Shown one piece after another: positions 27,001 to 59,551 of a DNA stretch of 64,000 bases (within the stretch, counting starts at the first letter, position 1; each line of letters opens with the position of its first letter). Source of the stretch: Cafeteria roenbergensis (lineage: Eukaryota > Sar > Bigyra > Bicosoecida > Cafeteriaceae); contig VLTN01000036.1 in the NCBI GenBank assembly GCA_008330645.1, positions 124,001 to 188,000 of the forward strand, given 5' to 3'. A program made the translations under genes and the position numbers. The notes beneath the pieces were generated by a model. That model had not been told where the DNA came from. It did no database searches and saw nothing but the letters and a program-made list of their open reading frames with translations.

Positions 27001-30000
27001 GCTCCATCGCTGCTGAAGGCACGCGTCGCTCTCGGCATCGACATGCTGCCAGTGTTCGCTCGGTAAAAGTCTGCAGGGTGAACTCAGCGTTGGCAAGGCA
27101 CCCGTCCCCGTGTCCGACGGCGGCCGCAGCCACAGCAGAAACGTGCTGCGCTGCAAGGCTCTCTAGAGCCGCTGCTCGACCGCTCGGGCCAGGCCGCCTG
27201 CTGGCCGTCTCCTCCTCGCCCTGCTTCTGCGGCGGTCCAAGAGTCGCGCTCGCTCGCGCCTGGAAGCCACCTGGCACCACTCGGCCGGGTTGGCAGTTGA
27301 AGGGCTCGATTCCGGTCTTCGCCATAAGCTCGGTCAAGGTGGACAAGGCCGCCGCTGCGGCCGCGTGGAGCGATGGTGCCGGCGCTCCTGGCTGGGCCAG
27401 GTGGGGACCTGCTCGCTGGGACCCGGCGCTTTGGACGGCTGCGGCTGCGCCGCTGGCGCTGGCCTGCGCAGGAGTGTGGTTCTGTGCTGCAGTCTCCGAT
27501 GCGAGGACGGTTTCCTTCGCTGCGAGAACCTTGTGAAGCATCTGAAGGCTCTGTACAAGCTCGTCGTGGTCGCCCTTGCTCCCACTGAGCCTCCGGGTTG
27601 TGCGTTCGCGTGCCGCGAGTCGCCGGAGCGCGGCCTTGACTTGCAGAAACTCGGCCTCCGGCCGTGCCACGTCGGTCACTCCATCCAATCCATTTGTTTG
27701 CATTCGAGCTGCGCTTGCATCGGGCTGTCGCAGTCGTAGCTTTCCGCACGCCAGGGACACGACGCCGAGCACCATACCACCGCCAACCCAAAGAGTGGAC
27801 GTGGTGAACGCAAGCCAGAACGCCAGCGCAAGTGCCGGTGCATAGCTTCCAAAGCGAGTCGCCGCGCCAGGCCCTCCAGCGCCCATCATGCGTAGCAGGA
27901 GCGGAGTCCAATGGGAGCCCAGCGCCGCCCCGGACATGGTGGTTACGCCATCCACAATCGACTCGAACCCACTTGGGCCTGGGAATGGGGACCATGAGAG
28001 CGCGAGCCACTGCCCAAACTGGGCGAACTCGCGGCGCACGCCAGTCTCCCCCACACCTGCGTCGAACACCACGCCCGTGCACTCCGCCTGCGACAGGCCC
28101 GTCGCGCCATTGCACCGCCCCAGGGCCCCGCGAAAGAGGAGCATCCCTGCCATGGCCCAGCCCAACACCCACACGAAAGCTCTCAGCAGCATGAAAAAAA
28201 CGATGTCCGCGCTTGAGCTCGCGAATCGTCCAAGCTGGGCGGCGCTCGGAGACCAGTCGAGGAGCGACCAAAGCAGCATTGTGCGCCCAGCAGCCGACAG
28301 CACACCCACCCACCTGGGAAGTGGAACCCAGTGGCCCGCGGCCAGGGTCCACGACGCCGCCAGGGTTCCCATTGCGACCATCACGGAGCCCTGGCCGCCG
28401 CCGCCTTGCCAGCGGCACCGGGCACAGGCCTGCCCTGCGAGCGCCAAGGCGCCAGGCAGCAGGAGAAGCGCCAGCACAACGTCCAGCACAGCAACTGCCC
28501 CTCCTGTCGCGTTTGCAGCAGCGTCGCAGCGCTTCCAAGTCGGGATCGGCGCGAATTTTGTCAGTCTCCAGCACGTCCTCACGAATGCTGTGTTCATGCC
28601 AACAGACGCGGCGGACAGCACTGCTGCCGTCTGCGTTGCCTTGCGCCATTTCCAGCCTCCCGAACGGTGCACCACCCTCGAGCAGGAGGACGCCTTCGCC
28701 CGGTTCGAAGCGCTTCGCCAGACGCGATGCAGAGCCGTCGTGGCCGTTTGTAGGGCGGACGAGCACTCGCGTACTGCCGACTCCCAGTAGCTGGGACGCC
28801 GTCCACCGATGTGATCGCCCTTGGATGTCAGTCCGCGGACAAACCGAGACGATAGGCGGAGCCCGATTCGAACTCGCTCCCAACGAGCCCGAGGGGCGCG
28901 TGTGATGCTTGCAAACGTTGCCAAGGACAATTCGAACGCCGACAGCTCAATGGTACCGGTTTCAAGTCGCAAGGCTGAGCGGCCGGTGGGGGGCGCCAGG
29001 GTCCAAAACTCTCTCGGCCCAACACCTCTGCTTCTTTCAAAGCGCGCCTCCCCCGTTCGCCTCTCCGAAGGCTCCGTCACAATTGTCAGCCCGATCGACC
29101 TGTGGCGCGAGGGGCTCTGCAAGTAGCTGGATGACGTCCGGAGCACACCTGGCCGACGGCATGCGTCGGCCATGGCCTGGGGAACCTGGACGCTTTCCCA
29201 CCCTCGTCGGAGAATCCTTGGCACGCTTGGAAGCCGCCTCCGTCCTGTTCTCGTCGTCGCACCAGCACCAGCACCTGCACCAGCACGACCGGCAATGGCA
29301 CGCTCCTCAGCGCGGATGGCAATGTGCTCCAAGCCAGCTGGCACGCGGATCAACGGAAGCAGGCGGTTGGCCCACTGTCGTCGGAACCGAATGTCGGTGC
29401 TCGTCGCCCATGGCTGTTCTGGGCGCAAAATTTGCGAAGCGACGGCTTCGGTCCAGCGCCACAGTCGGACGTCCTGGTGCTCGCGCCGCGAGTGCTCCGC
29501 GTCTGCGTACCCGCCCGACACGGCTGCAAAGAGTAGCGCCAGCATAACAGTGCGCGAAAGGTACACCCACCCGATGCCAACTACCCAGCCGGTGGACAAC
29601 CCAGGCTGCACTTCAGCCACGGCGTCTCCAAGCCACTCCCACCTGGCTCCTAGGGGCATCGCCGCGAGCGTAAGAAGAGTCCAAGCCGGGGTCTCCAGAG
29701 AAGCTCGCAGGTCAGAGGACGTCGTTCGCTGCCCGGTGGCCGGGTGCTCACCTCGATAGGTGCTGCCTCCGGAGAGCCAGTACCACTGTGTCATCGCCAG
29801 CGTGGCGAGGCACAGGGTGAAGAGCAGCCAGGCAAGTGTGCGACGGAGAGCCATTGCCACGGTACCCCACTCGAACCGCGGCAGCGGCCGGGGCTCGGCC
29901 CAGCGGACCAACAGCAGGGCAGGACCTAGTCGGTGCAGGGTCGCCAGGGACAGGATTTGGTCAAGGTGCATCGGCCCCGACCCCTCCGTTTGCCCGAAAG

Positions 30001-31895
30001 AGCCACCTTCGACGGCGGCGCGCCAAGCCATGACCGCGAGTTCAGCCACCGCCATGCTCAGCGCGAAGGCCTCCACGATATTTCCAGGCGAGGCAAGGAA
30101 CCGCACTTCCCCAAGCGCCCGCATGCGCACTGCGACTTGAGCGACCCAGAGGGCCAGGAACACGCCTCGAGCGACAGCTACCAGAGTCATTGATGCGTCT
30201 GCTTGGCCAGATGTGGGCTCCCACATGCGGTGACGGGCCAGCAGCAGGACCTGCGCGGCTGAGAGGCACCCTGAGACGAAACGGAACCACGACCGCCTGC
30301 GAAGTTGTCGCGCTTGCGTGCCCACATCATGGCAGCACCTGACGGCCTCCAACTCTCGGAGCTGTGGGGCGAGTCGCAGCCTGCGCCGTGCGGCTCGGCG
30401 TCCGCTGCTCGGCTGGTCGGCCCCGACAGCAGCGACCGACTCTGCATCAGCCGTGCGGAAGCTGGAGCTCCCTGCGGCGGCTGCTGGCGGGCCGAGGGCT
30501 CCCGGCTCGCGACTGGCGGGGAAGAGAGTGTGCGTTTGGGCAGTCTCTGCAGGCCTTGCCTCGAGCAGCTTGAGGGCCTCGGCGGCGATGCCCGCCTCGC
30601 GAGACCCGGACGACACGGACTTGAACCTCGCTCGTGCGGCCCGCGCTCTCTCCGTGGCATCCTTCCGCTGGCTAAGCCACTCGGGGTTTGGAACCAACTT
30701 TGCCCGTGTTGCCTGCCCAAACGCCATCGCCCGGACGAGGAAGCAGGGCGTGCAAGCAACGGCCCGCCACCGTGACACTGCGAAGTCGTCGGCAGGTGGG
30801 GAGCACTGATGTGCGAGGGCGTGTCGTTCACACGCTGGGCTAATCAAGCGTGACTGGTCGTCCTTGCGGGCGGCGATCTGCGCCAGCGCGGCAGCAGCAG
30901 GGAGCACGCCCGCGGCCCCTCCCAGCGCAATGACGGCCAGACCGACAACAACCAAGTGGTGCGAGCCCGTGCCATCAGCCATGTCGATCGCGGTGCTGCT
31001 CCAGCCTTGTCCGATTGCGAGCTGCAGCGTGAACGCAAGCGCTGCTGGCATAGAGCCAAGCGAAACGGCATCACGACTGGGGAGGGGAGAGCAAGAGTAC
31101 GTCGCGTTGCTGACTTCTGAGAACGTGGAACATTGTGCTGCTCCCCATTCGATTGCGGAGGCGGAGCTCGAACACCTTGCCGGACGTCCCGTGGCTGGCA
31201 ACAGCAAGGGAGCCGAGCCCGCCTGCGGTGAGTCTCGAACGCAGGCTTTGTCCAGTGCACCCGCCACGCTCTCCTCCACCACAGCAGCCACTGCCACCCC
31301 AATGACGACCACCACAAGTTCGATGGCCAGAAAGCGACGCGTGAGGCTCGGGGGCTTGAGCGGCCGTGCGGACGACGAGTCGGGCAGTCCAGGCCGATGT
31401 ACGCACTCGTGGGCAATCGCCAGTCGGGACACAGACAGCATGGTCAATGAACCAGCTATGTCTGACCGAGGCCAGAGCCAGCACGCCACGACCTCGGCGG
31501 TGGCGATGCAAGCTCCCAACATCCCACATGTGCAGCTCGGCAAGCCCGAACCGGCGCGGCAGCCAGATCCCAGCTGCACTGCCACCAGCGCCCTGCGCAC
31601 GACACGTGGCAAGCACCCAAGGCATCCTTCGCACAATCGATGCGGGCTTTGCGCAGCGCCGTATGGGCTGGCGCGCAGTGCGCAGCGACGTGCCTCACAA
31701 GTGCAGCGCAGCGACGGCGGCGGCCGCCACATCCAGCCATGCAGGCCTCCACGGCGAGCGCCGCGGCCACAAAAGCTGAGCAGCTGCTCCCAACAGGACA
31801 GCCGTGGCCACCCAGCGCACGGCCACGCGGTGGGCGCGGTGCCAGGTGCAGGGCAACCCGTTGCATGCGCAGGCCGGGGAGACGGGCTGAGGCAT
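24050..31895 (-). CDS. Four-repeat (24-TM) voltage-gated-type cation channel
   Basis: Exon 1 is 31699..31895 and exon 2 is 24050..31592. A 106-bp intron with GTGAGG donor and CGCAG acceptor joins in phase (2,579 aa). Four six-span repeats are visible, each with a pore loop before S6: I around GQGW (31001-31012), II LGARW (29630-29665), III LGSHW (27905-27925), IV AGGIW (25492-25518). The repeat IV S4-S5 region (NALRLLPADPALR, then VAIPSI) matches Cav/Nav/NALCN-type channels. The C-terminus has IQ motifs (VQRAFRRSRLR; IQRAWRACLSF) for calmodulin. Residues at the selectivity position read Q/A/S/G rather than acidic EEEE or DEKA. S4 charges are sparse in repeats I-III, so voltage sensing may be weak. 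A channel copy to the right is broken. Confidence 0.78.
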
Positions 31896-32301
31896 CGCGA
31901 GGTCCCCAGCAGCGAGCTCAGGTTAGCCTTGAAGGTGTTCCCACTGCTCGCCCTTCCGGCCTGGAAGCCCCACCCTTCACTCCCTCCCCTGAAGCTGTGC
32001 CTGGGCAGAAACGCAGTGAGTTGCGGCTGGCAGGCGGCTCTCGGAACCGCAGGCAGAGCTGGTGCCGACTCGGGTGGGCAGCGACGGTTCGCGCAAGAGC
32101 GAGCCTGTGCTTGCGAGCGCCCATCGTGCTGGACACAGTGTGGACAACAGTGTCGTCGACAAGTGATGCCATCACATCGCTTTGCGTCAGGCAAACGGCG
32201 CAACGCGCTGGGCAATGCTCAAGCGCCCGCAACACAATCACACAGCGCGTTCGGCCTCAGTGGGTTCACTGCTCTCGCTGTCTGGCCAGCCCGGCCAGTT
32301 T
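31896..32301. other. Channel 5' region / BRCA2-remnant spacer
   Basis: This is 406 bp between the proposed channel start and the BRCA2 remnant stop. It equals the intergenic spacer between the BRCA2 stop (40818) and the channel start in the right copy, so it should hold the channel promoter. Confidence 0.5.
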
Positions 32302-40817: not shown

Positions 40818-43800
40818 TCAGTCTGCAAGCATTCGCGTCGCAACCGCCAGCTCGCCCGAACACCGCTCGGCAAGTCCCCCTTCACCGTCCCCGCCGGCCC
40901 CGCCACCGCCCGTGCCCTCAAGCCCGCACACGACCTTGGCTGCCTCAGCGAACCGCCGCGCCACGGCATCCAGCGCCATTCCTGACTTCGTGCTGCTATT
41001 GAGCACCGAGCAAGTCGACCATCGACCCCATTCGAGCAGCGCCACAGGCCTTCCAACCTCCATTGCGGCCGCATCGTCCCGCCCTCGCACCTCGACCCCG
41101 CTCACCCGAACTCGCTTGCCAGGCTGACCCAGCGTTGCTCCGACGGCCCTTGCTGACAGGGCATCGGCTCTGCCGTTCAGCACAGCCAACGATCGCCCAC
41201 TGTCATCCAGCAGAACGGCTCGCCACTCCCCGAATCGGAACCAGGGTGGCACGCTGACGTCGTCCGATACCAAACCAGCTGCTCGCCGCCGAGGGTAGCC
41301 CTGCCGGCCACTACTAACGGCCCCATCAGAGGCCGCACCAAAAGTCGCGGCTCGTGTTGTGCGGGCGGGCAGCGAGTGCGAAACGCGTCCCTGAGACACG
41401 CTCCATCCCACCACCACGCCTTCCAAGTCGATGGCAGTGCCGAGAGCCACCAGTCCAAGCGGTGCTGCCGCGGCAGAGCCACCCTGGGAATCGCCCTTCT
41501 CCGGGTCCTGGGCAGTCACGCAGCCGCAGAGCACGGCCAGCTGAGCGACGGTCATCCGCGGCCTCGGGCTGCAGCCCGACGCCTCGAGCAGCTCCGCGTC
41601 GCTCAGTGCGACGAGGCCGGACCCGATTCCGGCGCCAGCTGGGCTGGCAGGCCTCGCGAGACGTGCCCCGCTTCGAACCCTTCCAGCAGAGCCTTCCGAG
41701 AGCTGCGTCGACGAGGCAGCCGGCGAAGCCCGACGAAGCGTCAACCGGCGCTTGTGGCGCGAAACCGCAGGAGCAGTCGGCCCTGTCACGCCCACGGGGC
41801 CCGACGCCACCGACACTGCGGGGGACTGGGCTGCTGCTGTGGACGCCTCTGCGGAGGGCTGCGGTCCTGCCGCTGCTGCCGCTGCGGCGCCTTGCCGGGC
41901 AGAGCTGTCCGCTGCGGCCGGCACCGCAGCCACCACTGCACGGGGGGAGTCCCCTTGGCAGAGCCGCTTCGCTGACGGTGCTGCTCCGCCCACGCTAAGC
42001 GATGCTTGGCCGGCCGCATCGCTCGGTGACGGTGGCCTCGATCCGGCAGGCGGCGACCCACGCGCTTCCGCGGCGCCAGGGGCGAACGACACGCGGCGCC
42101 CGCGCGCTCGCTTCCGCGAAACCGCTGAGCCAGACTCCCCGCCCAACACCGCCGGCTCCAAGGCGCCGTCCTCCAAGCCTGCCGGCAAGGCTGCCTGCTC
42201 CAGCCGGGCACGCTTCGCGGTGGGCTCCCCGGGAGACGCTGTCCCAGCTGCAGAGCCGTCGGCAGAGCTTTCCGTCCCCGGCTCTGCCGATGCGAGGGAG
42301 AGGGGCAGCCTGCCGGCGGCATCGCCCGCCGCCAGCGCTCTGTCCCTGGGGCTGGCGAAACGGAGTCTTCGCGGCGCTGCGGCAGAGCTGTCTGCGTCCA
42401 ACGGCGTCGTGGCTTTGCCGGAAGAGCCGTATCGCTTGGCCGGGGTGACTGTGGTGTCCGGAACGGCATCGGTGCGACGCGCCGTGCTCTGCCCTGATCT
42501 CTGGGCAGAGCTCATGGCAGAGCCAGCGCGCTTGAGCAAAGATGGGCGACCGCCTCCCAGCTGGCGGTTTCGTGGCGTTGTCGCACCGAGGCGTCTTGAT
42601 GCGGCGTTGCCACCGGAGTGCGCGGTCACCGACCGATGGCTCAAGCCGTTCGCGACCGTTGGAAGCAGCGGGACGGACGATGGGTCCACGTTGTAGATTC
42701 GCAAGGACCACAGCAGAGCCGCAGCGGCGGCGGCGTTGCGTGGAATCAGCAGGTCCACCCCTCGTGCAGGGCCAACGCCGGACGGGTCGACGGCAGGATC
42801 GACGGCAGGATCGACGGCAGGATCGACCCCCAGCCAGGTCGCGAGCGCGTGGGTTGAGTCAGCGAGCGACAACGCACTGCCCGGCTTGCCGGTGATGCCG
42901 CCTGACGCTGCAGCGTTTTGTTGGGAAGCCTTGACCCCTGTGTCCGCTTGGAGCAACGGCTCCGCATCCGAGGGATCCGGTGGAGCGACGCAGCGCTTCT
43001 CGCTCCGGAAGGCGAGCTGGACAGCCTCCACCGCCACAATCACGCGCCATTCAGAGGCTTGGTTGCCCACGGCCGAGCCAGCAGCTCTTGCAGAGCCGCG
43101 ATCGAGCGATGCTGTCGTCAACTCCCGCGCACTGTCGGTAGCCCGCGGCCGTCGCGATCGGACCAGCAATTCCAAGCCCTTCGGCAGAGCCTTCGGCAGA
43201 GCCCGTGCTCCTTCCAGTTTCACAGGAACGCCTGTCACGACGGGAAGCCAGACGGCGGCCTGAATGGGAGAAAGCGTGATGGAGGGATCTGGAAGGATCG
43301 GCGGGGCCGTCACAGTGTGCCTGGCGCCTGCACCGCCGTTGTCGCCAGCGGAGACGGCGGCTGCTTCACCAGCCGCTGGAGCGGTCTCAAGGCTGGCTCG
43401 GCTCGTGCCGCCGGCAGCAACGTCAGCAGCTCCACCAATCGCCGAGGCGGCTGCAGCGGTGGAGGCAGTGGCGGTGCCCGGGCCGCGAGGAGGCCTCGCG
43501 AGCGACGGCCCTTCCAGTAGCGAACGGCTCTTTGGGGTGACTGGTGCACGACGTCCCCTTGATGCCAAGGCGATGGAGAGCGGGTTCACGGCCTGCGGCC
43601 GGCGCACCGCTCGGACGTCAACGCCAAAGATGCGAAACCGCGACCCTTCCTTCAGCAATCCAGCGGTTTCGCCGCTTGCGCGCCACATTGCAATCTCTGC
43701 GCACACCGGCCGCGGAATGGTGCGCCAGCCCCGCTGCAGCGAAGCTCTCCCAGCAGCTGGAAAGATCGCATCAGAAGACTGCTCCGCCGTGCTGGAGGCG

Positions 43801-46800
43801 GTCGGACCGCCAAGGATCCGGCACACGACTGCAAGGGCGTCAGCTGACGAGGCGGCTGCCCCGAAGGGGTGCTTTCGCGCGACGGCGAGACGTTCCGCCG
43901 AGCGACGCCGGTCGCTTGACGAGGACATGCTCGATGACGTCAGCGGCACGGGCGTGGCAGCGAAGCCAGCCACCACGCCGGGGCTCTGCTGAGCGGCAGC
44001 GCTGGGTCCGGATCTGCGTTGTGCTGTTTCGCCGTCGAATTCGGAGTCGGAGTCGCTGAGCGACGCCGAAAGCTCAGGGCTGCTTGCAGGCGACGCGGGG
44101 CGGGAGCCAGCGTCGTGCTGCTGGTCATTGGTGGGCCCGGCGCGCGCCACAGCGCCTTGGGCGTTCGATGCGGATGGGCGGTCATCCGCTGAGTAGTTGA
44201 ACGCTTCTGCGCCGACGTCGCTGTCGTCCAGCGCCGAGCGCCCTCTTGCTAGGCGACGGCCAGTGAATCCAAGGCTTCCAACGGCTGGGCGCACTGCCTG
44301 GTCGGATCCGAGGGAATGGCGTCCACTGCCGCGCGCAGCGTCGACCCCAGCCGCAGCAGTAACCCCATCTTCATCGTCGTTGTCGGCGTCGGCCATGGCG
44401 CTGATGGCACCCGTGGCCTCCTCCTCCGGCTCCGGCTCCTCCTCTTCATCGTCGCCCAGTGATGCAAGCAGCCCCGCCCCTGACATCACGCGCGACCGCG
44501 GCTTCCACCTCCCTCGGTCCTCGGATCGCTTCGAAGGCGCTCCACCGGAGCATCCAGCTCTGCCGCGCAAGCCTGTGACTTCGTCTGGTCGGGGCCCAGA
44601 AGCGGCAATGTCCGTTGCGTTGAGCTGCTTGCCGTGAGCGCCAGCCGCATCGCTGCCGTCGTCAGAACCCGGTGAGCCATCACCTCGACCAGGGGCTCTG
44701 CTAAAGCGGCTCTGCAGGTCAACTTCATCGCAAGGGGTGCCGTCAAGCGTGTCGTCCAGGTCATCATCGGAGAGTCTGTCAACAATCACACACCGGTCAG
44801 ATGCGACTCCAGTGCCCCGCGCGTGGGCCACGGGGTTGGGGGCGCGACGGGCCACTCGGCTTCGGCTGCGAGTTTGGCGCCGACAACGACCAGCTCCTGG
44901 CAGAGCAGGCATGGCCGCAGAGCCCGCCTCATTGTGCTTGGGCGACGGCTGGATGGAAGGGCTGGGGGCAGCGGCACGCCCCTCGGCGGCCGGGGTCCCG
45001 TCCGGACCTTCACCGATGCTGGTTCGGGCAGTGTCCGTGGAGTCCCTACAGCGGCCATCGCGCCTGCTGGTTGGCCTGTTGAGCGACTCTGGCCCCGTCG
45101 CCCGCGCAGCGAGACGATCTTCATCGGAGTCACTGGGGGAGTCACTCAGGCAGTCAGTGAGGGATGCCTTTGTTGCTCCAGACAGCCTCCTGTCCTGCTG
45201 ATGCACGGGTGAGGGGGCGGGTGAAATTGCTGGCTCTGGGGGTCGAACAGCCGTCAATGTTGAGTCTCCGACACTGACGGTGGCAGGGTGTGGCCCGGTG
45301 GCATGGGCAGTCGCTCCTGCTACAGTTGCAGTTGCAGTTGCAGTTGCAGATGCATTTGCAGAGGGGGTGATCGCTGCTGCCCGCCGCTCCTGCGACGCTG
45401 CCTGGGCTTGTAGCACTGCCATCAAGCGAGCATCCATCCCGCGCCGGAGGTCCGTGGTCGTCGGCGCGTCGACCACCAGCATCGGCACCATCGCGGTTTC
45501 GCGTTCTCCTCCCAGCCCGAGCTTTGCCAAGATCGATGCCCGCCTGCTGGAAAGGCGATGTGCTTGCGATGCAGCGGTTTCGTCTGCTTCCGCAACCAGC
45601 TCGCGGTGATGCGCGGCCTGATCCGATGACGATCCGTCAGTTCTGCCGCCGCGACGCCGAGATGATGCGCTTGAGGCAGAGCCGCCGTCGAATGCCATCT
45701 CCAAGGACAAGGCTCGCTTCTGCAGCTCGGCTCGCTCTGCCGCAAACTCCGCAGCGAGAGACGCCTCTGCCGCCCCGGCAGCCGCTTGGATGACCTCGTC
45801 ACGCATGCGGCGCCAGGCGACAGCCTCGGAAGCAGTCATCATTCGCTTGCACCGCGGCCCCAGCGCGTCTCTCACGGCCATTGCGCGGACCCGCAGCGAC
45901 GCTGGAGTGGCGGGCTTGCCAGAGCCGGCTCGGCCAGCTTCAACGTGACGAGTGCCGCTCCCGCCGTCGTGGACGCTGCTTCCGCCGCCGTCGTTGCCAT
46001 CACTGTCTCCGCTCTCGTCATCGGAAGCATCCCCGCACGATTCAGGTTCCGCCGGCACTCCCTTCATGAAAACCTTGGCCTCGCCCCGACGAGCGACCAG
46101 CACGTCCACACAGGGCGCCGTTCCGCCCCCCGGCACCAGCGACGCCACAGCCACCCGGAACGCCTTCCCTGCCTGAAAGCCCAGCTTGGCATCCCACGCG
46201 GCGCGGCGCGTGCCATTGACGAAGAGGCACAGGTGCTTGTGACTGGCAGCTGCGGCTGACTTGACTGCGGCAGCGACGGCTGCGGCGCAGGCTGAGTCCG
46301 ACTCGCCGGCTGGGGTCGCCTCGCCAAGACCGCTGCCCCCAGCGTTAATCTGCACGTCCTGGCCTGGACAGCTGGAGCCGTGGGGCCGCACTGCCATGAT
46401 CTGCTTCAAGAGGGCGGGCAGCACTCGGTGGTTGGAAGCCACCTCCATGGGTGCGGCGCCAGCAGCGGGCGGGGGAATGCTTGGCCTTGCCGAGCCGCCG
46501 GTGGCTGGCGCGACGCCCGGCAGTGGGGCGCCCGCAGCGGAGCCAGAGCCACCGGCAGAGCCTGCGCTGTTCGCTTGCGGGGGCGGGGCCCCGTTGCTGG
46601 CATCGGCTGGCGGGCCGTTGAGCAGGTCGCTGAGCGACGGCGACGTGAGCGACGCCACGAGCGATGCCGTCGCGATGGCAGGGCCCTCCCTGAGCGACGC
46701 TCCCCACACCCGGACCTTGCTTCCAACGGACACCTTCCCCACCACTGCCAGACACTGCAGCCACCTGTCAGCTGACGCCTCCACGCAGCACCAGCCGTCG

Positions 46801-49800
46801 CTGACCTCCAGAACGCAAGCCACGTCGTCGGGAACGCACGACAGCAGGCCCTGCAGCGGAGGCGACCCTGCTGGGGACAAAGTCGCTTTGCCATCAGTCG
46901 GCGGTCGTGCCCCAGACCCCGCGCCATCGCGACCATCAACCAATCCAGCGAGGCGCTCCCGTCGGACTCGACGCCGCTCTTGCTGTTGCAGAGCCGCGCG
47001 CGAATCCTTCCATCGCCGAGTCGCCGCCTCACACACTTCTGCTGCCTCCGCATCACTCGCCAGTCGCCAACCTCCGAAACGGTCTGGGACGCCTCCTCGA
47101 TGACCAGTTGAGCCTGCACTCGACGACGAAGCGGAACGAGCGGGCGCCCCACCTCCCGGCAGCTTGCGGTAGAGCCGCACGGCTGACACAACCAGCGCCA
47201 TGTGCCTGTCGGGCCTGTCGTCCTTGGAAAGCACCCGAGCGATCGCCGAGCGACGAGCCCGAACCACCTCCGTCTCATAGCGACAGAGCAAGCGATGCAC
47301 AACACGGTCGAAGGACAAGTTGGCAGAGCCAAGGGCAGTGCCGATCGCTGCCTGGACCGTGCTGTCGCTGCAGTGCCGCCTTCCGGATCCCACACCAGCC
47401 CCAGCGCTAGAAGCATCGGAAGAGGCTTCAGTTGGAGGTGCTTCGGCACCTGCCAGCTCTGCCGGCGGGAAGGGCAGCTCTGCCAGACGGTCCACGCATG
47501 CCTGCAGGTCCAACGCTGGCAGAGCCCGCAGAGCCGCAGCAGCGCGACGGCGAGCAACGCGCTCGCGGCTTGCGATTGACCAAACGACCCAACGCCAGTG
47601 CAGGGCAACCCACTCGAGAGTCAGGTGCTTCGCGGCACAGCCGAGTCGGAGCAGGTGCCTCCTGGCAGCGGCGAAACCGCCAAGCTGCACGCCTTCAGCG
47701 ACCGCGTTGCTCAGGGCAGAAGCTGACTGGCCAGTGGTGTCGGCAGAGCCGGGACTCGGTACAACAACGACTGTTCCCATGCCTGCCGTCGCACAGGCTG
47801 GTGACTCGCTTTCGGCGACCGACAGCCCGGAGAGTCCGCTCACCCGCGGCTTCGCCAGCGGGCCGCTGGAAGGGAGCTGCCGGTCTGGGCCCGGGGTGAA
47901 GTGGCAGAGCTCTGAGGAGTCCGGAGAGATCGTGTCGAGCCATGCCAGAGGCGAGGTGAGGAGCTGCAGCGCCCGAGCTCTGGCGAGGGCTGCAGCATGC
48001 GTCTGCCCGGACCGGAACCGTGAGACTGCTGCATGCAGAGCCGTTGTGGCTGCTGCCGATACAGCCGCCTGCATCCCGGCTGCCTGAGACAGCCGCTCAG
48101 ACGAGGCGGTGGCAGCGCCGGACTGAGCCGGCTGCAGGGCATCAGTGGGCGACGCTGCTTCACAGGAAGTCTGCGGGGTAGGCGCACTATCGCCGGGCAG
48201 GACACACACAGATCGAACGCCGCCCCCAGCACCACCTGTGCGGCTTTTAGATGCGTAGAGCTTTGCAAGGGCCTCTCGAGCCCGGCGGGTGGCCGAGGCC
48301 GATGCAGGCCGAGGCGTGACCGCGCCGCGCAGGCGCGGCCGCGAGCTTGCTCCGCCACTCTTGGGAGCAGCCGCTGGTGTAACGGCGCTGCCGTTCGAGC
48401 CCGGTGCAGTGGCCACGTGGGTGGCGGAGCGAGTCTTGCTGGCCGGCGTTGTGGGCGCAGCCTTGCCAGCATAACTGGAGGGATAGTCAGCGGCTGAGCC
48501 ATCCTGCGGCAGCGTTGAACCAGAGCTTGGCATAGCTGAATCGGTGTGGGACTGGTCGCGAGGAGTCACTCGCGGAGCCACTCGCCTCGGCTTGACGAAT
48601 GGGGTCAGCGAAGTGGCGGAAGTTGCTGCTTCAGGGGTGGTGTCGTGGTCACTGGCATTGGCGGCTCCGTCCGATCCCGCGAGCGTCGTCGATCGTCCAA
48701 GTGCGCCGCTCGCCGCCAGGACCTTTGGTGTCACTCGCCGAACAACGATGCCTGGCAAGCGGGAAAGGCGGCTGGCGGGCGTTGCAGTGTCGGCCGGGGA
48801 CGCCAGCCTGTGGGACTGCAACTGGTCCTGGACCGGCTTCCGATGGCTGCCTGACTGACAATCATCAAGTACGCGACGCTCCGCAGCACCCCGCTGCCGC
48901 TCTTCTTGAGCCAATGGGATGTGAAGCTGCTGCTGCTGGCTTTGAACCAGCTGCTGCTGCGTACCCTGTTGACGTCCGTCGCTTCCACACAAGGATGGGT
49001 CTGTGGCAGACGGTTGCGAAAGCTGCTGACATGATGCATCGCCGGCCCCATCGACAAGGGAAGGCCCCGAGGCCGGAGGACGTTGCTGTGACACAGCACC
49101 AGACGTGTCGCACGCAGCTGAAAGGTCCGTCGCAACCATCTGAGCCATATCTGCGGAAGTGGGTTCACCGCTCGACGGGCCGGCCGCGTCGCCCAGCACC
49201 GCCCGCGCTCGAGCCAGACCCGCCGCCGACACGCTCACCGGACGACGCGACGCCGTCTGGAACATCGGCACAGACGACGGGCCCGCCCCCGTGCCGCTGC
49301 CCTCAGCGCCGTGATCGTCGCCGGCTGTCGTCGGCTCGCCGCTCGACGGGCCGGCCGCGTCGCCCAGCACCGCCCGCGCTCGAGCCAGACCCGCCGCCGA
49401 CACGCTCACCGGACGACGCGACGCCGTCTGGAACATCGGCGCAGACGACGGGCCCGCCCCCGTGCCGCTGCCCTCAGCGCCGTGATCGTGTTCGTCGCCG
49501 GCTGCCGTCGCCTCGCCGCTCGACGGGCCGGCCGCGTCGCCCAGCACCGCCCGCGCTCGAGCCAGACCCGCCGCCGACACGCTCACCGGACGACGCGACG
49601 CCGTCTGGAACATCGGCGCAGACGACGGGCCCGCCCCCGTGCCGCTGCCCTCAGCGCCGTGATCGTGTTCGTCGCCGGCTGCCGTCGCCTCGCCGCTCGA
49701 CGGGCCGGCCGCGTCGCCCAGCACCGCCCGCGCTCGAGCCAGACCCGCCGCCGACACGCTCACCGGACGACGCGACGCCGTCTGGAACATCGGCGCAGAC

Positions 49801-52800
49801 GACGGGCCCGCCCCCGTGCCGCTGCCCTCAGCGCCGTGATCGTGATCGTCGCCGGCTGTCGTCGCCTCGCCGCTCGACGGGCCGGCCGCGTCGCCCAGCA
49901 CCGCCCGCGCTCGAGCCAGACCCGCCGCCGACACGCTCACCGGACGACGCGACGCCGTCTGGAACATCGGCGCAGACGACGGGCCCGCCCCCGTGCCGCT
50001 GCCCTCAGCGCCGTGATCGTGATCGTCGCCGGCTGTCGTCGCCTCGCCGCTCGACGGGCCGGCCGCGTCGCCCAGCACCGCCCGCGCTCGAGCCAGACCC
50101 GCCGCCGACACGCTCACCGGACGACGCGACGCCGTCTGGAACATCGGCGCAGACGACGGGCCCGCCCCCGTGCCGCTGCCCTCAGTGGCGTGTTCGTCGC
50201 CGGCTGTCGTCGCCTCGCCGCTCGACGGGCCGGCCGCGTCGCCCAGCACCGCCCGCGCTCGAGCCAGACCCGCCGCCGACACGCTCACCGGACGACGCGA
50301 CGCCGTCTGGAACATCGGCGCAGACGACGGGCCCGCCCCCGTGCCGCTGCCCTCAGCGCCGTGATCGTCGCCGGCTGTCGTCGGCTCGCCGCTCGACGGG
50401 CCGGCCGCGTCGCCCAGCACCGCCCGCGCTCGAGCCAGACCCGCCGCCGACACGCTCACCGGACGACGCGACGCCGTCTGGAACATCGGCGCAGACGACG
50501 GGCCCGCCCCCGTGCTGCTGCCCTCAGCGCCGTGATCGTGTTCGTCGCCGGCTGCCGTCGCCTCGCCGCTCGACGGGCCGGCCGCGTCGCCCAGCACCGC
50601 CCGCGCTCGAGCCAGACCCGCCGCCGACACGCTCACCGGACGACGCGACGCCGTCTGGAACATCGGCACAGACGACGGGCCCGCCCCCGTGCCGCTGCCC
50701 TCAGTAACGTGTTCGTCGCCGGCTGTCGTCGGCTCGCCGCTCGACGGGCCGGCCGCGTCGCCCAGCACCGCCCGCGCTCGAGCCAGACCCGCCGCCGACA
50801 CGCTCACCGGACGACGCGACGCCGTCTGGAACATCGGCGCAGACGACGGGCCCGCCCCCGTGTCGCTGCCCTCAGCGCCGTGATCGTGATCGTCGCCGGC
50901 TGCCGTCGCCTCGCCGCTCGACGGGCCGGCCGCGTCGCCCAGCACCGCCCGCGCTCGAGCCAGACCCGCCGCCGACACGCTCACCGGACGACGCGACGCC
51001 GTCTGGAACATCGGCGCAGACGACGGGCCCGCCCCCGTGCCGCTGCCCTCAGTAACGTGTTCGTCGCCGGCTGCCGTCGCCTCGCCGCTCGACGGGCCGG
51101 CCGCGTCGCCCAGCACCGCCCGCGCTCGAGCCAGACCCGCCGCCGACACGCTCACCGGACGACGCGACGCCGTCTGGAACATCGGCGCAGACGACGGGCC
51201 CGCCCCCGTGCCGCTGCCCTCAGCGCCGTGATCGTGTTCGTCGCCGGCTGCCGTCGCCTCGCCGCTCGACGGGCCGGCCGCGTCGCCCAGCACCGCCCGC
51301 GCTCGAGCCAGACCCGCCGCCGACACGCTCACCGGACGACGCGACGCCGTCTGGAACATCGGCGCAGACGACGGGCCCGCCCCCGTGCCGCTGCCCTCAG
51401 CGCCGTGATCGTCGCCGGCTGTCGTCGGCTCGCCGCTCGACGGGCCGGCCGCGTCGCCCAGCACCGCCCGCGCTCGAGCCAGACCCGCCGCCGACACGCT
51501 CACCGGACGACGCGACGCCGTCTGGAACATCGGCACAGACGACGGGCCCGCCCCCGTGCCGCTGCCCTCAGCGCCGTGATCGTCGCCGGCTGCCGTCGCC
51601 TCGCCGCTCGACGGGCCGGCCGCGTCGCCCAGCACCGCCCGCGCTCGAGCCAGACCCGCCGCCGACACGCTCACCGGACGACGCGACGCCGTCTGGAACA
51701 TCGGCACAGACGACGGGCCCGCCCCCGTGCCGCTGCCCTCAGCGCCGTGATCGTGATCGTCGCCGGCTGTCGTCGGCTCGCCGCTCGACGGGCCGGCCGC
51801 GTCGCCCAGCACCGCCCGTGCTCGAGCCAGACCCGCCGCCGACACGCTCACCGGACGACGCGACGCCGTCTGGAACATCGGCGCAGACGACGGGCCCGCC
51901 CCCGTGCCGCTGCCCTCAGCGCCGTGATCGTCGCCGGCTGTCGTCGCCTCGCCGCTCGACGGGCCGGCCGCGTCGCCCAGCACCGCCCGCGCTCGAGCCA
52001 GACCCGCCGCCGACACGCTCACCGGACGACGCGACGCCGTCTGGAACATCGGCGCAGACGACGGGCCCGCCCCCGTGCCGCTGCCCTCAGCGCCGTGTTC
52101 GTCGCCGGCTGCCGTCGGCTCGCCGCTCGACGGGCCGGCCGCGTCGCCCAGCACCGCCCGCGCTCGAGCCAGACCCGCCGCCGACACGCTCACCGGACGA
52201 CGCGACGCCGTCTGGAACATCGGCGCAGACGACGGGCCCGCCCCCGTGCCGCTGCCCTCAGCGCCGTGTTCGTCGCTGGCTGTCGTCGGCTCGCCGCTCG
52301 ACGGGCCGGCCGCGTCGCCCAGCACCGCCCGCGCTCGAGCCAGACCCGCCGCCGACACGCTCACCGGACGACGCGACGCCGTCTGGAACATCGGCGCAGA
52401 CGACGGGCCCGCCCCCGTGCCGCTGCCCTCAGCGCCGTGATCGTCGCCGGCTGTCGTCGCCTCGCCGCTCGACGGGCCGGCCGCGTCGCCCAGCACCGCC
52501 CGCGCTCGAGCCAGACCCGCCGCCGACACGCTCACCGGACGACGCGACGCCGTCTGGAACATCGGCGCAGACGACGGGCCCGCCCCCGTGCCGCTGCCCT
52601 CAGCGCCGTGATCGTGATCGTCGCCGGCTGTCGTCGCCTCGCCGCTCGACGGGCCGGCCGCGTCGCCCAGCACCGCCCGCGCTCGAGCCAGACCCGCCGC
52701 CGACACGCTCACCGGACGACGCGACGCCGTCTGGAACATCGGCGCAGACGACGGGCCCGCCCCCGTGCCGCTGCCCTCAGCGCCGTGATCGTCGCCGGCT

Positions 52801-55632
52801 GTCGTCGCCTCGCCGCTCGACGGGCCGGCCGCGTCGCCCAGCACCGCCCGCGCTCGAGCCAGACCCGCCGCCGACACGCTCACCGGACGACGCGACGCCG
52901 TCTGGAACATCGGCGCAGACGACGGGCCCGCCCCCGTGCCGCTGCCCTCAGCGCCGTGATCGTCAGCGTCGCTGGCTGTTGTCGGCTCGCCGCTCGACGG
53001 GCCGGCCGCGTCGCCCAGCACCGCCCGCGCTCGAGCCAGACCCGCCGCCGACACGCTCACCGGACGACGCGACGCCGTCTGGAACATCGGCGCAGACGAC
53101 GGGCCCGCCCCCGTGCCGCTGCCCTCAGCGCCGTGATCGTCAGCGTCGCCGGCTGTCGTCGGCTCGCCGCTCGACGGGCCGGCCGCGTCGCCCAGCACCG
53201 CCCGCGCTCGAGCCAGACCCGCCGCCGACACGCTCACCGGACGACGCGACGCCGTCTGGAACATCGGCGCAGACGACGGGCCCGCCCCCGTGCCGCTGCC
53301 CTCAGCGCCGTGATCGTCAGCGTCGCCGGCTGTCGTCGGCTCGCCGCTCGACGGGCCGGCCGCGTCGCCCAGCACCGCCCGCGCTCGAGCCAGACCCGCC
53401 GCCCGACACGCTCACCGGACGACGCGACGCCGTCTGGAACATCGGCGAGCAGACGACGGGCCCGCCCCCGTGCCGCTGGAACATCCCTCAGCGCCGTGAT
53501 CGTCGTGCGTCGCCGGCTGTCGTCGGCTCGCCGCTCGACGGGCCGGCCGCGTCGCCCAGCACCGCCCGTGCTCGAGCCAGACCCGCCGCCGACACGCTCA
53601 CCGGACGACGCGACGCCGTCTGGAACATCGGCACAGACGACGGGCCCGCCCCCGTGCCGCTGCCCTCAGCGCCGTGTTCGTCGCCGGCTGTCGTCGCCTC
53701 GCCGCTCGACGGGCCGGCCGCGTCGCCCAGCACCGCCCGCGCTCGAGCCAGACCCGCCGCCGACACGCTCACCGGACGACGCGACGCCGTCTGGAACATC
53801 GGCGCAGACGACGGGCCCGCCCCCGTGCCGCTGCCCTCAGCGCCGTGATCGTGATCGTCGCCGGCTGTCGTCGGCTCGCCGCTCGACGGGCCGGCCGCGT
53901 CGCCCAGCACCGCCCGTGCTCGAGCCAGACCCGCCGCCGACACGCTCACCGGACGACGCGACGCCGTCTGGAACATCGGCACAGACGACGGGCCCGCCCC
54001 CGTGCCGCTGCCCTCAGCGCCGTGTTCGTCGCCGGCTGTCGTCGCCTCGCCGCTCGACGGGCCGGCCGCGTCGCCCAGCACCGCCCGCGCTCGAGCCAGA
54101 CCCGCCGCCGACACGCTCACCGGACGACGCGACGCCGTCTGGAACATCGGCGCAGACGACGGGCCCGCCCCCGTGCTGCTGCCGTCCGCGTCGGGATCGT
54201 CGCAACCGTCGTCACCAGCGTTCACGGTTGCGCTATCTGCTTGGGCTTCACCATTGACTTGGCCGACTCCTGCTATAACCGTCTCGCGTCCTGGCAACTC
54301 CGTGCCGGCGTTTTCGCTGGTGTCGTCATTTGCGCGATCTTCGCTTGCTCGCCTGGATGCCGGCCCGCTCCGGCCTGCGTCCGGGGTGTACGCAAAACCT
54401 GCTCCCTGTGCGCTGGACGCACTCCTGCTTGCGGGGGCACTGCTATCTAGCTGGGACATGGGCAGCGGAGATCGCGATGAGGTCACACCCGAGTGTGCAT
54501 CGGCGTGGTGCGCGCTGCCGCCCGCCGTGGCTGGGGGCTGCGAGCCTTCACCTGCACCAGTCGCCAAGCTTGAAGTGTGCTGATTCGGCCCTGCCGGGCT
54601 GCGACCGGGGGTTGATGGTTGCCTGGCCGCAGTGGGACCCGCCAGCTGGGCAACCTGCGGTGATGGTACCCGCGACGATGAGGCGCCCAGTGCATCGGCA
54701 GTGTCTGCAGATGCGCCGGGCAGAGCTGTCGCGACAGCTGCTGGGGGCTGTGCGCCGGCCCTACCGTCAGCTGACTCTGTGCCTTGCGAGTCCGATGGCT
54801 GGGTCGGCACCTGCGATGGCGTGCCAAATTGCTCGGCCGGCCTTCGAGCCGTGCACGCAGCGCACCTGCGCTTGCGAAACGGGTTGACCAGCGTGCAGCT
54901 CGGGCAAGACCACGCTGCTCCGCGGTTTCGTGAGGACCGCGGGGTGGACAGAGCCGTTGCGGCAGATGCAGCCGCAGCTGCGGATGCGCGACGCGTGCGC
55001 GACGATGACGGTTGCAGTGACTCCAAGGTCGAGGCTCCGCTGGTGCGTCTGCTGTCAGTGGCATCAGCCGTTGCTGAGGAGGTGGCCGACTGCTGAGCGG
55101 CGGGTGGTGGTGACGCTGGAGACGCCTCTGCCGAGGAGGCTTCCTGAGCCCCCATCAAGGCTCCGCCTACGTGTGGGGCGGCTGGGCCAGTGGCTGGGTG
55201 TCGCTGGGACCGCCTCTGGGGGCTGCTTTGGGAGCTGCTCCCCTGCGCGGAGCCTTGCGATTCTCGAGCGCAGGGCGGTGCCGGCAGCTGAGGCGGCTGA
55301 ACAGCCTGGTGCGAATGCCGTGCGCCAGGAGAATAACGCGCAGGCGAGCGGTTTGGGCCTGCGAGGTTGGGGAGCGCGCCGCGATGGGGGCCACCGCAAT
55401 TCTGGCATTTGCGCGAGGCGCGCCTATCGGCTGTTGGCGCCGGCGAACGCTGCGCAATGCGGCAGCGCGGGCTGGCAGCACCGTTGGACTCACGCAAGAG
55501 TGCGATTGCCGCGTCGTCTTGCGACATTGAGAGCCACCCGAGGGAGCCACCGACCACTGCGCGCATGCCGCCAAACAGCTCGAGCGCTGGCAGCGAGGAA
55601 TCGCGGTCCAGCGGGTCAGGCCCCTCAGCCAT
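40818..55632 (-). CDS. BRCA2: BRCA2 with 29 BRC repeats and RanBP2 zinc finger
   Basis: This is one essentially intronless frame of about 4,940 codons, apart from one disturbed repeat unit at 53400-53520. Start chosen at 55632 (GCCATGG context) because GCN5 starts divergently at 55835. Order: Ser/Ala-rich N-terminus with a RanBP2-type zinc finger (about residues 236-262, W-S-C-P-S-C...N...C-A-A-C); 29 BRC repeats (about 480-2155) with core FQTASRRPVSVSAAGLARA; a long disordered region; the helical domain (LEWVALHWRWVVW; YETEVVRARRSAIARVL, about 2660-2806); OB1 (VLEVSDGWCCVEAS; KLGF; CVDVLVAR, about 2940-3180); OB2 elements (AEIAMWR...LLKEGSRFRIF, about 3970-4004); and OB3 at the C-terminus (IDLEGVVVG; VRVSGVEVRG). 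BRCA2 loads RAD51 onto single-stranded DNA in homologous recombination. The human protein has eight BRC repeats. Confidence 0.93.
42780..42835 (-). repeat. 12-bp coding repeat (VDPA)n in BRCA2
   Basis: Four tandem copies of GGATCGACGGCA-type 12-mers encode VDPAVDPAVDPAVDPS in the DNA-binding half of BRCA2, between OB-fold elements, presumably in a surface loop. Confidence 0.85.
49170..54190 (-). repeat. BRC tandem array, 29 units of about 168-180 bp
   Basis: Twenty-four units lie between 49170 and 53375, one disturbed unit at about 53400-53520, and four more up to 54190. Units are almost identical at DNA level. Differences concentrate in an acidic linker (GE-A/P-T-T/A-A-G-D followed by DDH, DEH, DHDH, ADDH, HVTEG or HATEG), where 6-bp steps of Asp-His change the unit length. 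Each core keeps FxTAS and the V-S-V-S helix start. The LFDE-like second motif is replaced by VLGD. Confidence 0.95.
53400..53520 (-). other. Indel cluster in one BRC unit (frame break)
   Basis: Against every other unit this one has an extra C (CGCCGCCCGACAC), two extra bases (GGCGAGCAGACG), six extra bases (CGCTGGAACATCCCTCAG) and an altered spacer (GATCGTCGTGCGTCGCC). The net change breaks the reading frame between the upstream 4-repeat part and the downstream 24-repeat part of BRCA2. Four independent errors in one unit suggest a consensus artefact at an assembly joint. Confidence 0.8.
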
Positions 55633-55834: not shown

Positions 55835-58800
55835 ATGGACGCCCCTGAGGCCACGCGCAAGCGCGAGCGGGACGAAAGTTCGGCTTCCTCTGGTGAGCCC
55901 AGCCGCGGCCTGTCCGCCGCTCGAACTGTCACTCACGCGGCTGCTTGCGCAAGTCTCGCTTTGCAGGCCCCCTGCTGATCCCTGGGCACGGGCGCAAGCC
56001 AGGGCTACTGAAAATGTGTCTTTGCGTCTGTGCTGGTGTGCTTTCTGCAGCTGGCCATGGCGCCGGGTCCCCTGGGACGCACGGCCAGTCGCCTGCTGAG
56101 CTTCGCCCCACGGCTGACGCCGTGCGCATGAGCCTCGATGACGCAGCCCAGCGCAGCGCCCCGCCACCGTCGCATGGCGTCCTCTCAAAGCACACTGCCG
56201 GGGGGGCAGCCAGCTCCGAGGCTGCTCCGGGTGGCGCTGGTGGCGCGCCAAGCGATTCTCGCAAGCAGTTGCCATCCCACTCGCCCTCGTCGTCCTCATC
56301 GTCCGCGACTGTCGGCGCGACTGGTCCGGCGGCGCATGCATCTTCTCGCTCGGCTGCTGCTGCAGCTGGCTCTACCACTCCAGCAAGCACCAGCAGCGGC
56401 AGCGGTGGCAGCAGCTCTCAAGCCCACCAGGCCGACGAGGCCGGCGCCCCCCCCGCTCCCACGCCCACCTTCGTGCCCCCCACCGGCATGTATGCCTGCT
56501 CTGCGGAGCCGCCCCTGAGCCGCGAGGAGCGTGCCCGGGGCGAGAAGCCCAAGGGGTCTCTGGCCTTCGCAGTCGTCACCAACGACGGCCACCCCCAGCA
56601 TGTGGTCTGGCTTGTCGGCGCGAAGTGCATCTTTTCCCAGCAGCTCCCCAAGGTGAGCTGCACCCGTCAAGCCCACGAGCTCGCGCCAGGATCCAGCTCT
56701 GATCGCAGCTGCAAACTATGCTCTGAGCCGAGCTCAACTTAGTTCCATACTTGCATTCAACTCTGTTGAGCCGCTGCGCCTGACTTCGCTCGCAACTACC
56801 CGCAGATGCCCCGGGAGTACATCGTCCGTTTGGTCATGGACCGGCGCCACCGCACGCTCCTCGCCCTCCGCGACGGGCGCGTGGTCGGCGCCATCTGCTA
56901 CAGGCCGTTCTTCGAGCAGCGATTCGCCGAAATCGCCTTTTGCGCTGTGACGTCATCCGAGCAGGTGAGAGACGCTGTGCAGAGCCAAGTGCCTCAGCCC
57001 GCGTCGCCCTGCACCAAAGTGCCCAGTGACCACAGCCGCCCGGACGGGCATATCACCCTCTCGCAGCCCTTCGCCCCGACCAACCCCGGCCCGTGCCGAT
57101 TCGGCGACGATGCCAGTCCTTTCGCACCCTCCTCTGCCTTGCTCTCACCGCCCCAATTCTCCCCCCTGACGCTTTTTTGTATTTCAATACTTGTCTCGTG
57201 ACTAATATATTTGTGCGCAGGTCCGCGGGTACGGCACGCGGCTGATGAACCACCTCAAGATGGCTGGCATGCGTGACGGCATAACGGACATGCTGACGTA
57301 CGCCGACAACTTTGCCACGGGGTACTTCAAGAAGCAGGGGTTCACGACGGCAATCTGCATGGAGCGCCGCCGATGGAAGGGGTACATCAAGGACTACGAG
57401 GGGGGCACTCTCATGCACTGCGCCGTGGCGCCAGGCATCGACTACAGGAACATTCCCGGAATGATCCGGAGCCAGCGGAAGCTGCTGGTCGAGCGCATCC
57501 GGAAGCTGGACCCGGCCGCCGCTGCCGCCCTCGGGCTCGACAGCGCCTCGGCTGGGTCGGGGTCTGGTGCCCTCGCGCCAGCGGTTTCCAAGTTGCCGGC
57601 CGCGAAGCAGAGCCATGAATCTTCGGCGCCGGCGGCCGGCGGGTCGGCCGCCTCCTCGTCCTCCTCCTCCTCCTCGTCGTCGTCGTCATCGTCATCGTCG
57701 TCGTCGTCTACGGCAGGGTCAGCCGACGCAACGGGTGCCCCTGCGAGCTCTTCCTCGGCTGGTGCTGCCGGTGGTGGCACTCCGGCGGTTTCGGCGCCGG
57801 CCAGGGCCCTGTCCCCGGCGGAAGTTGCTGTCAGACACCTGTGCCTGCACCGGCGGTTGCTGAGCCTGACGACCGACATCACGTCCATCGAGGCCTCTTG
57901 GCCCTTCCGCGAGCCGGTGAACCCGGCTGAGGTGCCCGGCTACGCCGACGCAATCAAGGAGCCGATGGATCTCCGCACCGTGGAAGAAAAAGTCCGCACG
58001 GGACAGTACGCTTCGGCCGAACAATACGCCGCCGACATTGCGCTGATATTGGACAACTGTCGCATTTTCAACGACAACCACTCTGTGTTCGCGGGCTGCG
58101 CGGACAAGGTGGAGGCTGTGGCCGCAGCCCGCCTCGCCAAGCTGCAGCAGGCGGTAGACGTCGACGTGGCCGAGGCGATGACGTCACTCGCAGCGGCATC
58201 AGCAGCGCACTCCGCCGCCGCCGCCGCCGCAGCTGCCGCCTCCGCCGCTGCCGCCGCTGCCGCGACCGCGCCTGCAGCAGCGCCCGCGGTCGTTTCCCAC
58301 CAGCCTGCGCCGGCTGGCAGCGCGGCCGGCCCCTTGGCGGCCATGCCTCCGCCCCGACATTCGGCCGCCGGTGCCCCGCCTCTCAGCTCTGGCCCTACCG
58401 GGAGTGGTGGTCACAGCGAGGCCGCGACGGCCCAGCAAGCCCAGCTGCAACCCGCTGCGGCGTCCGTTCGGGCGGTTGCAGAGCCGGCAGCGTCTGTGCC
58501 CGTGCCGGTCGCAGCACCGGCAACAGCATCGGCGCCCAATCCAGCGCAGTCGTCGTCGTCCTCGTCGTCGTCGTCTTCTGCTGCTGCTGCTGCTGCTGCT
58601 TTCACGCCCAGCTCCGCCGCCGCTGCCACAGCCAGCGCAGGCCCTCGAGGCGCAGTGCACCATCCAGGGCCATCGGCGGTTTCGCCGTCTCGAGCTGCTC
58701 CTCGGCACCTCGTTCCGCTTCAGTCAGGAGCCAATCTCCCGGCAATCACCCACCCGTCAGCCCGCGGTGCAGTTTCCGATGCGGAGCGACAAGCGGCCGC

Positions 58801-59551
58801 CGCCGCGGAGGCCGCCACCATCGCATCCGCCCGCGCCGCCGCAGAGCAGGCATCACGGGCGGGTCAGATGGCATCGCCAGGGAGGGCCGGGCCGACAGCC
58901 GGAGGCGCCCGGGGCATGCCCATTCCGATTCCTTCTGCGCGGCACTTTTCCGGCTCTGCAGGAAGCGGAAGTGGAGTCGCAACAGGCTCTGCCGCCCCTC
59001 CCATCGGCGCGAGGCATGTAGCGATGAGCGGCCCTCCGGGCTCGGCGGTTTCGCCGCACGCCGCCGTTGCCCTGGGTGGGGGATACGGAGGGGCAGTGGG
59101 GCCCTTGGCGGGTCCCCCGGGTCACTCAGGACCACCATTGCACATTGGAGGGCGGCCGCTGCAGTCGCACCCTCCCCACGGCGGCCCGCCACTCTCACCG
59201 TCCCAGCAGCAGCAGCTAGCGTACCAGCAACAGCAGATGTACCAGCACCAGCAGCAGCAACACATGTACGCCCCCCAGCAGATGCAGCAGCGGCATGCAG
59301 CGGCAAGCGCACTTGGCATGGCGCCCGGCACGGCAGCAGCCTCGGCCGCCGCTGCAGCTGCTGGCGCGGCTGGAGCCATTCACCCCGGAGCGGCGGGTGT
59401 GACCCACAGCCCAGGCCATGCTGGCTCTGCCACCGGTCACCTGGCGCCCCCGCCGGCGGGCAGCGGCCTTGGCCCATCAGCGGGCCATCACCCCGCCCAA
59501 GGATACCCCGGCACGGGTGAACCCCCGCGCCCGTGGAACGGATCTGCGTGA
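55835..59551 (+). CDS. GCN5: GCN5/PCAF-type histone acetyltransferase with bromodomain
   Basis: Exons 55835..55892, 56051..56652, 56806..56964 and 57221..59551 join in phase (1,049 aa). After a disordered Ser/Ala/Gly N-terminus, the GNAT domain runs from about residue 185 to 365: LAFAVVTNDG, KCIFSQQLPK, the catalytic-Glu strand FAEIAFCAV, acetyl-CoA loop QVRGYGTRLMNHL, then YADNFATGYFKKQGF and GYIKDYEGGTLM. A bromodomain follows (about 480-590; WPFREPVNPAEVPGYADAIKEPMDL, ILDNCRIFND). Like yeast GCN5 it lacks the PCAF N-terminal domain. The last 450 residues are Ala/Ser/Pro/Gly and Gln-rich low complexity with Ser and Ala homopolymers, unlike the family, where the bromodomain ends the protein. 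It acts in SAGA/ADA-type complexes on histone H3. Confidence 0.95.

Follow-up and report, generated by a model that had tools for sequence, protein, structure and literature searches.

A predicted BRCA2 orthologue with a homogeneous array of about 29 BRC repeats in the assembled genome of the protist Cafeteria roenbergensis

Introduction

The number of BRC repeats in BRCA2 differs between organisms from one to many, and the reason for this was described by Hartley and McCulloch 2008 as unexamined to that date (PMC2408642). Human BRCA2 has eight non-identical BRC repeats (PMC2408642), some Drosophila BRCA2 proteins have seven, nine or eleven (PMC2882388), and family members that lack OB folds also exist (PMC8121103). 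The closest described system is that of Trypanosoma brucei, in which the units are 44 aa long; 15 were predicted from the genome and 11 per allele were obtained by PCR in that strain. Lister 427 has 12 and 10 repeats and two subspecies carry fewer (PMC2408642). The figure of 15 is repeated in a review (PMC8121103). Trichomonas vaginalis BRCA2 has 14 predicted BRC repeats and, outside T. brucei and T. congolense, the repeats have been described as unevenly spread and degenerate (PMC2408642). When T. brucei BRCA2 was cut to one repeat, recombination and RAD51 foci were impaired, yet the protein still supported VSG switching (PMC2408642), so a high repeat number is not needed for every task. In moss BRCA2, the affinity of four joint BRCs for RAD51 is about 100 times that of a single BRC (PMC12412785).

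Here we describe a gene from the bicosoecid Cafeteria roenbergensis which probably encodes a BRCA2 orthologue whose RAD51-binding region has grown into a homogeneous array of about 29 units and which would act as a multivalent RAD51 loader. The original prediction for this locus had set it against an array of about a dozen repeats in trypanosomes, and that comparison agrees with the 11–12 measured and 15 predicted for T. brucei (PMC2408642). In the literature surveyed, which was largely without subscription journals and so gives no proof of a record, we found no BRC number above 15, and our literature search returned no paper joining BRCA2, Cafeteria and BRC. What is new here, pending long-read proof, is the number and uniformity of BRC units in a free-living protist.

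Results

Layout of the BRCA2-like gene

The gene lies within the window, by which we mean the whole 64-kb stretch of DNA that was analysed. Its features are as follows.

40818..55632, minus strand: BRCA2-like gene, comprising open frames P0002 and P0001, with a likely ATG at 55632 and the stop at 40818
54838..54912, minus strand: possible RanBP2-type zinc finger (WSCPSC...CAACTARRP), N-terminal of the BRC array (PF00641, 23.7 bits)
49168..54200, minus strand: tandem array of 29 BRC units of 57/59 aa (TRF, FQTA anchors, PF00634)
~53400..53510, minus strand: frame break inside the BRCA2-like gene, with four length changes in units 4–5 (unit alignment, unit lengths)
47556..47642, minus strand: BRCA2 helical domain, first conserved block (PF09169, 16.5 bits; aligned to 1MJE)
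47178..47318, minus strand: BRCA2 helical/OB1 conserved block (LSFDRVVHRLLCRYETEVVRARRSAIARVL...), aligned to 1MJE/1MIU/1IYJ and to the relative P0003
46089..46814, minus strand: OB1 domain, two blocks with a long insert between them (PF09103, 54.3 bits in 2 stretches; 1MJE blocks)
43602..43700, minus strand: OB2 block (AEIAMWRASGETAGLLKEGSRFRIFGVDVRAVR; PF21318, 18.0/21.5 bits; 1MJE)
40992..41456, minus strand: OB3 candidate, by eye only, with no Pfam or PDB match

The ATG at 55632 was our choice, the open frame extending upstream to a GTG at 55932. The region between this ATG and the array is rich in Ser, Pro and Ala, and the zinc-finger candidate within it scores under the Pfam cut-off of 27 (E 2.8e-5). 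The BRCA2-like frame contains no stops in 55632–54192 and none in 49169–40821; since the 2783-codon C-terminal frame after the array has 0 stops, against 30 to 66 in the other five frames, a chance open frame can be excluded. An antisense open frame of 1648 aa over the array (49311–54257) was set aside because the BRC, OB1 and other matches all lie on the minus strand.

Size and uniformity of the BRC array

The count of 29 BRC units given in the original prediction was reproduced in two ways: 29 FQTA anchors run along the minus strand of the 64-kb window from 54144 down to 49262, and TRF reported a single array at 49168–54200 with a period of 171, 28.9 copies, 95% matches and 3% indels. The 29 tandem units start with FQTASRRPVSVSAAGLARARAVLGD on the minus strand and FQTA is present in 29/29. 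When cut at the FQTA anchor, the units are 171 or 177 bp long, with the exceptions of unit 4 (186 bp) and unit 5 (178 bp). A typical protein unit reads FQTASRRPVSVSAAGLARARAVLGDAAGPSSGEATTAGDDHGAEGSGTGAGPSSAPM, and 68% of it is Gly, Ala, Ser, Pro or Thr.

A search with the Pfam BRC model had been proposed as a check on the original prediction, and in the assembly searched (36,303,456 bases, 167 contigs) PF00634 scored above its cut-off in at least 28 places, every one inside the array, at 32.8 or 31.6 bits each; by open frame, it gave 605 bits for P0001 (24 stretches) and 108 bits for P0002 (4 stretches). A DNA search of the genome with one unit found 30 places, again all in the array, 28 of them full length and the other two being part of the last unit and a piece just upstream of unit 1. 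Neither the Pfam profile nor the DNA search of the whole assembly found a BRC paralogue or allelic copy outside the array.

The units are nearly identical in DNA, making this a homogeneous array of the T. brucei type. A 96-bp core is the same in 24 of the 29 units, silent positions included; four more are one base off, and a length change puts unit 5 out of register. Mean pairwise identity, with gaps counted, is 96.7% among 26 units (units 4, 5 and 29 left out), and there are 21 distinct unit sequences among the 29.

Among solved structures, the closest and only match to one unit was the RAD51-bound BRC1 peptide of Leishmania (7QV8 chain D), with E 0.5 and no gaps over 28 residues; this match is weak alone. 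By reading, the unit also carries VLGD, i.e. two hydrophobic residues and an acid, at the right spacing for the second BRC module (LFDE). The fourth-module tetrad of the Leishmania infantum BRC1–RAD51 complex (7QV8) is RLGD, with one hydrophobic residue where the Cafeteria tetrad retains two, and L. infantum BRCA2 has only two repeats (PMC9162458).

The DNA-binding domain and BRCA2 identity

For the C-terminal region, the mouse and rat BRCA2 structures (1MJE, 1MIU, 1IYJ) gave matches with E 2.8e-10 to 4.9e-9. The matches consist of five short colinear blocks, of which the helical region and OB1 hold two each and OB2 holds one; each block is weak alone. The original prediction had spoken of an intact helical/OB region. 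This held for OB1, whose PF09103 score exceeds the cut-off of 25.6, but the helical domain (PF09169, cut-off 25), which also has a colinear block in the 1MJE alignment, and OB2 (PF21318, 18.0 bits in a long piece and 21.5 in a short piece, cut-off 27) both score below theirs, and neither Pfam nor PDB gave an OB3 match for the last 300 aa. A BRCA-2_helical profile run against the whole genome also produced no match at E <= 0.001, but its controls gave none either, so this negative carries no weight. Long low-complexity inserts separate the blocks of the domain. The assignment to BRCA2 itself was borne out by PF00634 in at least 28 places, by OB1 above its cut-off and by the colinear mouse and rat blocks, and on this sequence evidence the gene is a BRCA2 orthologue.

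The protein resembles human BRCA2 in its FxxA BRC repeats and in having helical, OB1 and OB2 blocks colinear with the mouse and rat structures, and differs from it in the long inserts that interrupt OB1 and OB2 and set the two apart, and in the possible RanBP2-type zinc finger before the array. As in the published account of T. brucei BRCA2 (PMC2408642), head-to-tail BRC units that are near-identical in DNA, the last one diverging, are followed by the DSS1/DNA-binding domain, and the expansion looks lineage-specific; unlike the T. brucei protein (44 aa, 11–12 measured), the Cafeteria protein has units of 57/59 aa, of which there are 29 in the assembly, and belongs to a different supergroup. 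T. vaginalis BRCA2 is likewise a protist protein of high repeat number, with half as many.

A search for protein relatives, in which scoring was limited to 8000 candidates, gave a single match, a 1070-aa BRCA2 from public sequence (P0003). It shares the core RPV.VSAA.LARAR and the helical and OB1 domains with the Cafeteria protein, but its units, about nine in number (8 by pattern, one by eye), are diverged and not homogenised. The two other protein relative searches yielded nothing at E <= 0.001 (1632 and 1526 candidates scored), exact-pattern scans of viral and genome contig collections gave no match, and none of the 7 stretches matched in a relative scan of viral contigs was confirmed.

Probable recombination between units and amplification elsewhere in the genome

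The 26 clean units vary at 18 columns of the alignment, mostly in the linker. With the 6-bp length variant counted once, nine of 13 variable sites fall within 36 of the 171 bp (binomial 0.00025, for a stretch picked after looking). All four combinations were present in 11 of the 15 pairs among six variable sites, four of the 11 resting on one unit; such pairs point to exchange between units, although repeated mutation could give some of them, and the units look reshuffled by recombination. A simple trail of stepwise duplication was not seen, as neighbouring units were no more similar than shuffled ones (6.75 versus 6.15 differences, p 0.83); units two apart were slightly more similar than shuffled (5.14 versus 6.14, p 0.07), which is not convincing. 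Third-position GC is 0.78–0.84 in the array and 0.61–0.77 outside it, a difference that is compatible with GC-biased conversion without being a test of it.

As a control, TRF was run on 22 loci (220 kb; GC 71.3%), 20 of them taken from the 20 longest contigs, always at the same fixed position, and two beside or within the contig of the BRCA2 gene. These loci held two other arrays with a period above 100 bp, of which only that in L037 reaches at least 10 copies, and together with one from the window they are listed here.

L037 2725–8635: ankyrin array, 395 bp x 15.0, one ankyrin repeat per unit, by reading
L040 526–1853: ankyrin array, 283 bp x 4.7, one ankyrin repeat per unit, by reading
Window 13658–15407: ankyrin array, 343 bp x 5.1, one ankyrin repeat per unit, by Pfam

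CAG precedes the ankyrin coding piece in all three arrays and GTGAG follows it in L037 and L040; the units look like an exon plus an intron, apparently amplified and homogenised together, intron included. Adjoining the ankyrin array of the window is a 33-bp tandem repeat (15684–15946, 8.0 copies at 97%), the period of which is a multiple of three.

Amplification with homogenisation thus looks to be a habit of this genome and not specific to BRCA2. It had been suggested in the original prediction that the array is kept by recombination that BRCA2 itself promotes: the recombination is backed by the mosaic sequence pattern, but nothing shows BRCA2 acting specially on its own gene, and the same amplification at the ankyrin loci weakens any idea that the array is driven by BRCA2 function. 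Those three arrays also favour a rival explanation that falls only a little short of being probable, namely that the BRC array is selectively neutral, the genome amplifying tandem coding units generally and the number of BRCs being without special function. Within the BRC core, silent sites vary as little as amino-acid sites do, so the uniformity of the units needs no selection on the protein, and in Drosophila yakuba BRCA2 alleles with 3 and 5 repeats coexist (PMC2882388). Against neutrality, every length change outside units 4–5 is in frame, the variation is mostly in the linker (the nine sites noted above, in a stretch picked after looking), and in T. brucei the number of repeats affects recombination (PMC2408642). 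We continue to favour a functional array, one whose growth and lasting uniformity would come from gene conversion and unequal exchange among its units, the amplification being the same as at the ankyrin loci.

Copy number and frame in the assembly

The copy number of about 29 rests on one assembly, pending long-read proof, and neither this dependence nor the frame break in units 4–5 was noticed in the original prediction. Assembly and polishing might in part have created the copy number and the uniformity, and the array might in truth be shorter, longer or more varied; we consider this unlikely, though it deserves to be taken seriously. The probable source assembly (BVI) was made from PacBio RS II reads at 45x, with Racon polishing by 2x300-bp Illumina reads (PMC6972860), and reads of that length would, we believe, not be uniquely placeable in a 5-kb array of 171-bp units; in T. 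brucei, too, the genome predicted 15 repeats where PCR gave 11 (PMC2408642). The cluster of length changes in units 4–5 resembles an unresolved consensus. On the other hand, consensus polishing tends to erase variants, yet 21 distinct sequences remain among the 29 units; apart from units 4–5, unit lengths preserve the frame; and 5 kb is within the span of long reads.

The cluster consists of four length changes within about 110 bp, with a net shift of one base modulo three, as a result of which units 1–4 and units 6–29 lie in different frames. Stops appear in the unit frame of units 4 and 5. Units 1–4 are in open frame P0002 (814 aa), which stops soon after unit 4, and units 6–29 are in open frame P0001 (4185 aa) together with the DNA-binding domain. 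Outside units 4–5, every length difference in the array is a multiple of three. The break is probably a local error of assembly or consensus, and the frame would then be continuous in the living cell. It is improbable that the break is real, whether the allele encodes a truncated protein that has four BRC units but lacks the DNA-binding domain, is a pseudogene, or has the broken part spliced out as an intron: the assembled frame from the likely ATG does end shortly past unit 4, and other genes of this genome have introns, e.g. RAD51 (by reading), but 24 units and 2783 codons stay open downstream, which an old pseudogene would not retain, all four length changes are confined to about 110 bp of a 5-kb array, and the assembly is without a second BRC locus to take over.

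RAD51 and other partners

The partner genes RAD51 and DSS1 are both encoded in the genome, RAD51 on contig C41 (locus L011, E 1.8e-126) and DSS1 on contig C39 with 32.2 bits, exactly at the cut-off of 32.2. RAD52 is present on contig C12. The self-association motif of RAD51 reads FSTA if the intron is spliced as we read it. When aligned to human RAD51 (5JZC), the Cafeteria protein carries Glu in place of human Tyr205 and Lys in place of Met251 (numbering counted by hand). These two human residues line the second (LFDE) pocket of human RAD51 (PMC9162458). Leishmania RAD51 has Leu and Ser at those two positions, its pocket is shallow and the LFDE-like part is dispensable for binding (PMC9162458). 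Because of the Glu and Lys, the second contact between BRC and RAD51 may be changed in Cafeteria: on the side of the unit (VLGD) it looks canonical, whereas on the RAD51 side it does not. Such a pocket bears on which part of the BRC contact is essential.

A DMC1-like exon was found on contig C37 (loci L012, L014, L017), its best PDB matches being DMC1 (E 5e-45) and RAD51 (E 4e-40). According to the account in PMC6972860, no sexual cycle is known for Cafeteria, the organism that carries this DMC1-like gene.

Discussion

By analogy with T. brucei BRCA2, the Cafeteria protein is most likely a multivalent RAD51 loader. Our working model is that the BRC units are joined by flexible Gly/Ala/Ser/Pro linkers and that the FQTA hook of each unit would fit the RAD51 subunit interface, so that one BRCA2 could hold many RAD51 monomers; the DNA-binding domain together with DSS1 would bring this load to RPA-covered single-stranded DNA, where the delivered RAD51 would seed a filament. 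It had been proposed in the original prediction that the protein could coat itself with tens of RAD51 molecules, and from the 28 intact FxxA cores encoded we infer that it may do so.

A further proposal, which we regard as improbable, makes BRC number a fast heritable dial: the array, held uniform by BRCA2-promoted recombination, would vary in length from cell to cell and thereby set the amount of RAD51 on each BRCA2 molecule, to a maximum of about 28 monomers or roughly 1 MDa, and its own locus would recombine more when the array is long and less when it is short. Returning to the multivalent loader, 29 near-identical units in a free-living protist would, if verified, be about double the highest number that we found in print. 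We know of no antigenic-variation context in Cafeteria, and repeat number would, on the same condition, be separated from antigenic variation. The units are so similar that number can be studied without the confounding differences of human BRC1–8.

Three other open frames in the window were also noted. On the minus strand, an open frame of 2721 aa at 24050–32215 contains an ion-channel domain (PF00520, 43.7 bits), and one of 771 aa at 18510–20825 contains a zeta-toxin-type kinase domain (PF06414, 70.9 bits); a zeta-toxin-type P-loop domain in a eukaryote is not necessarily a toxin. Beside the BRCA2 gene, at 57245–59551 on the plus strand, an open frame of 768 aa contains a bromodomain (PF00439, 64.6 bits).
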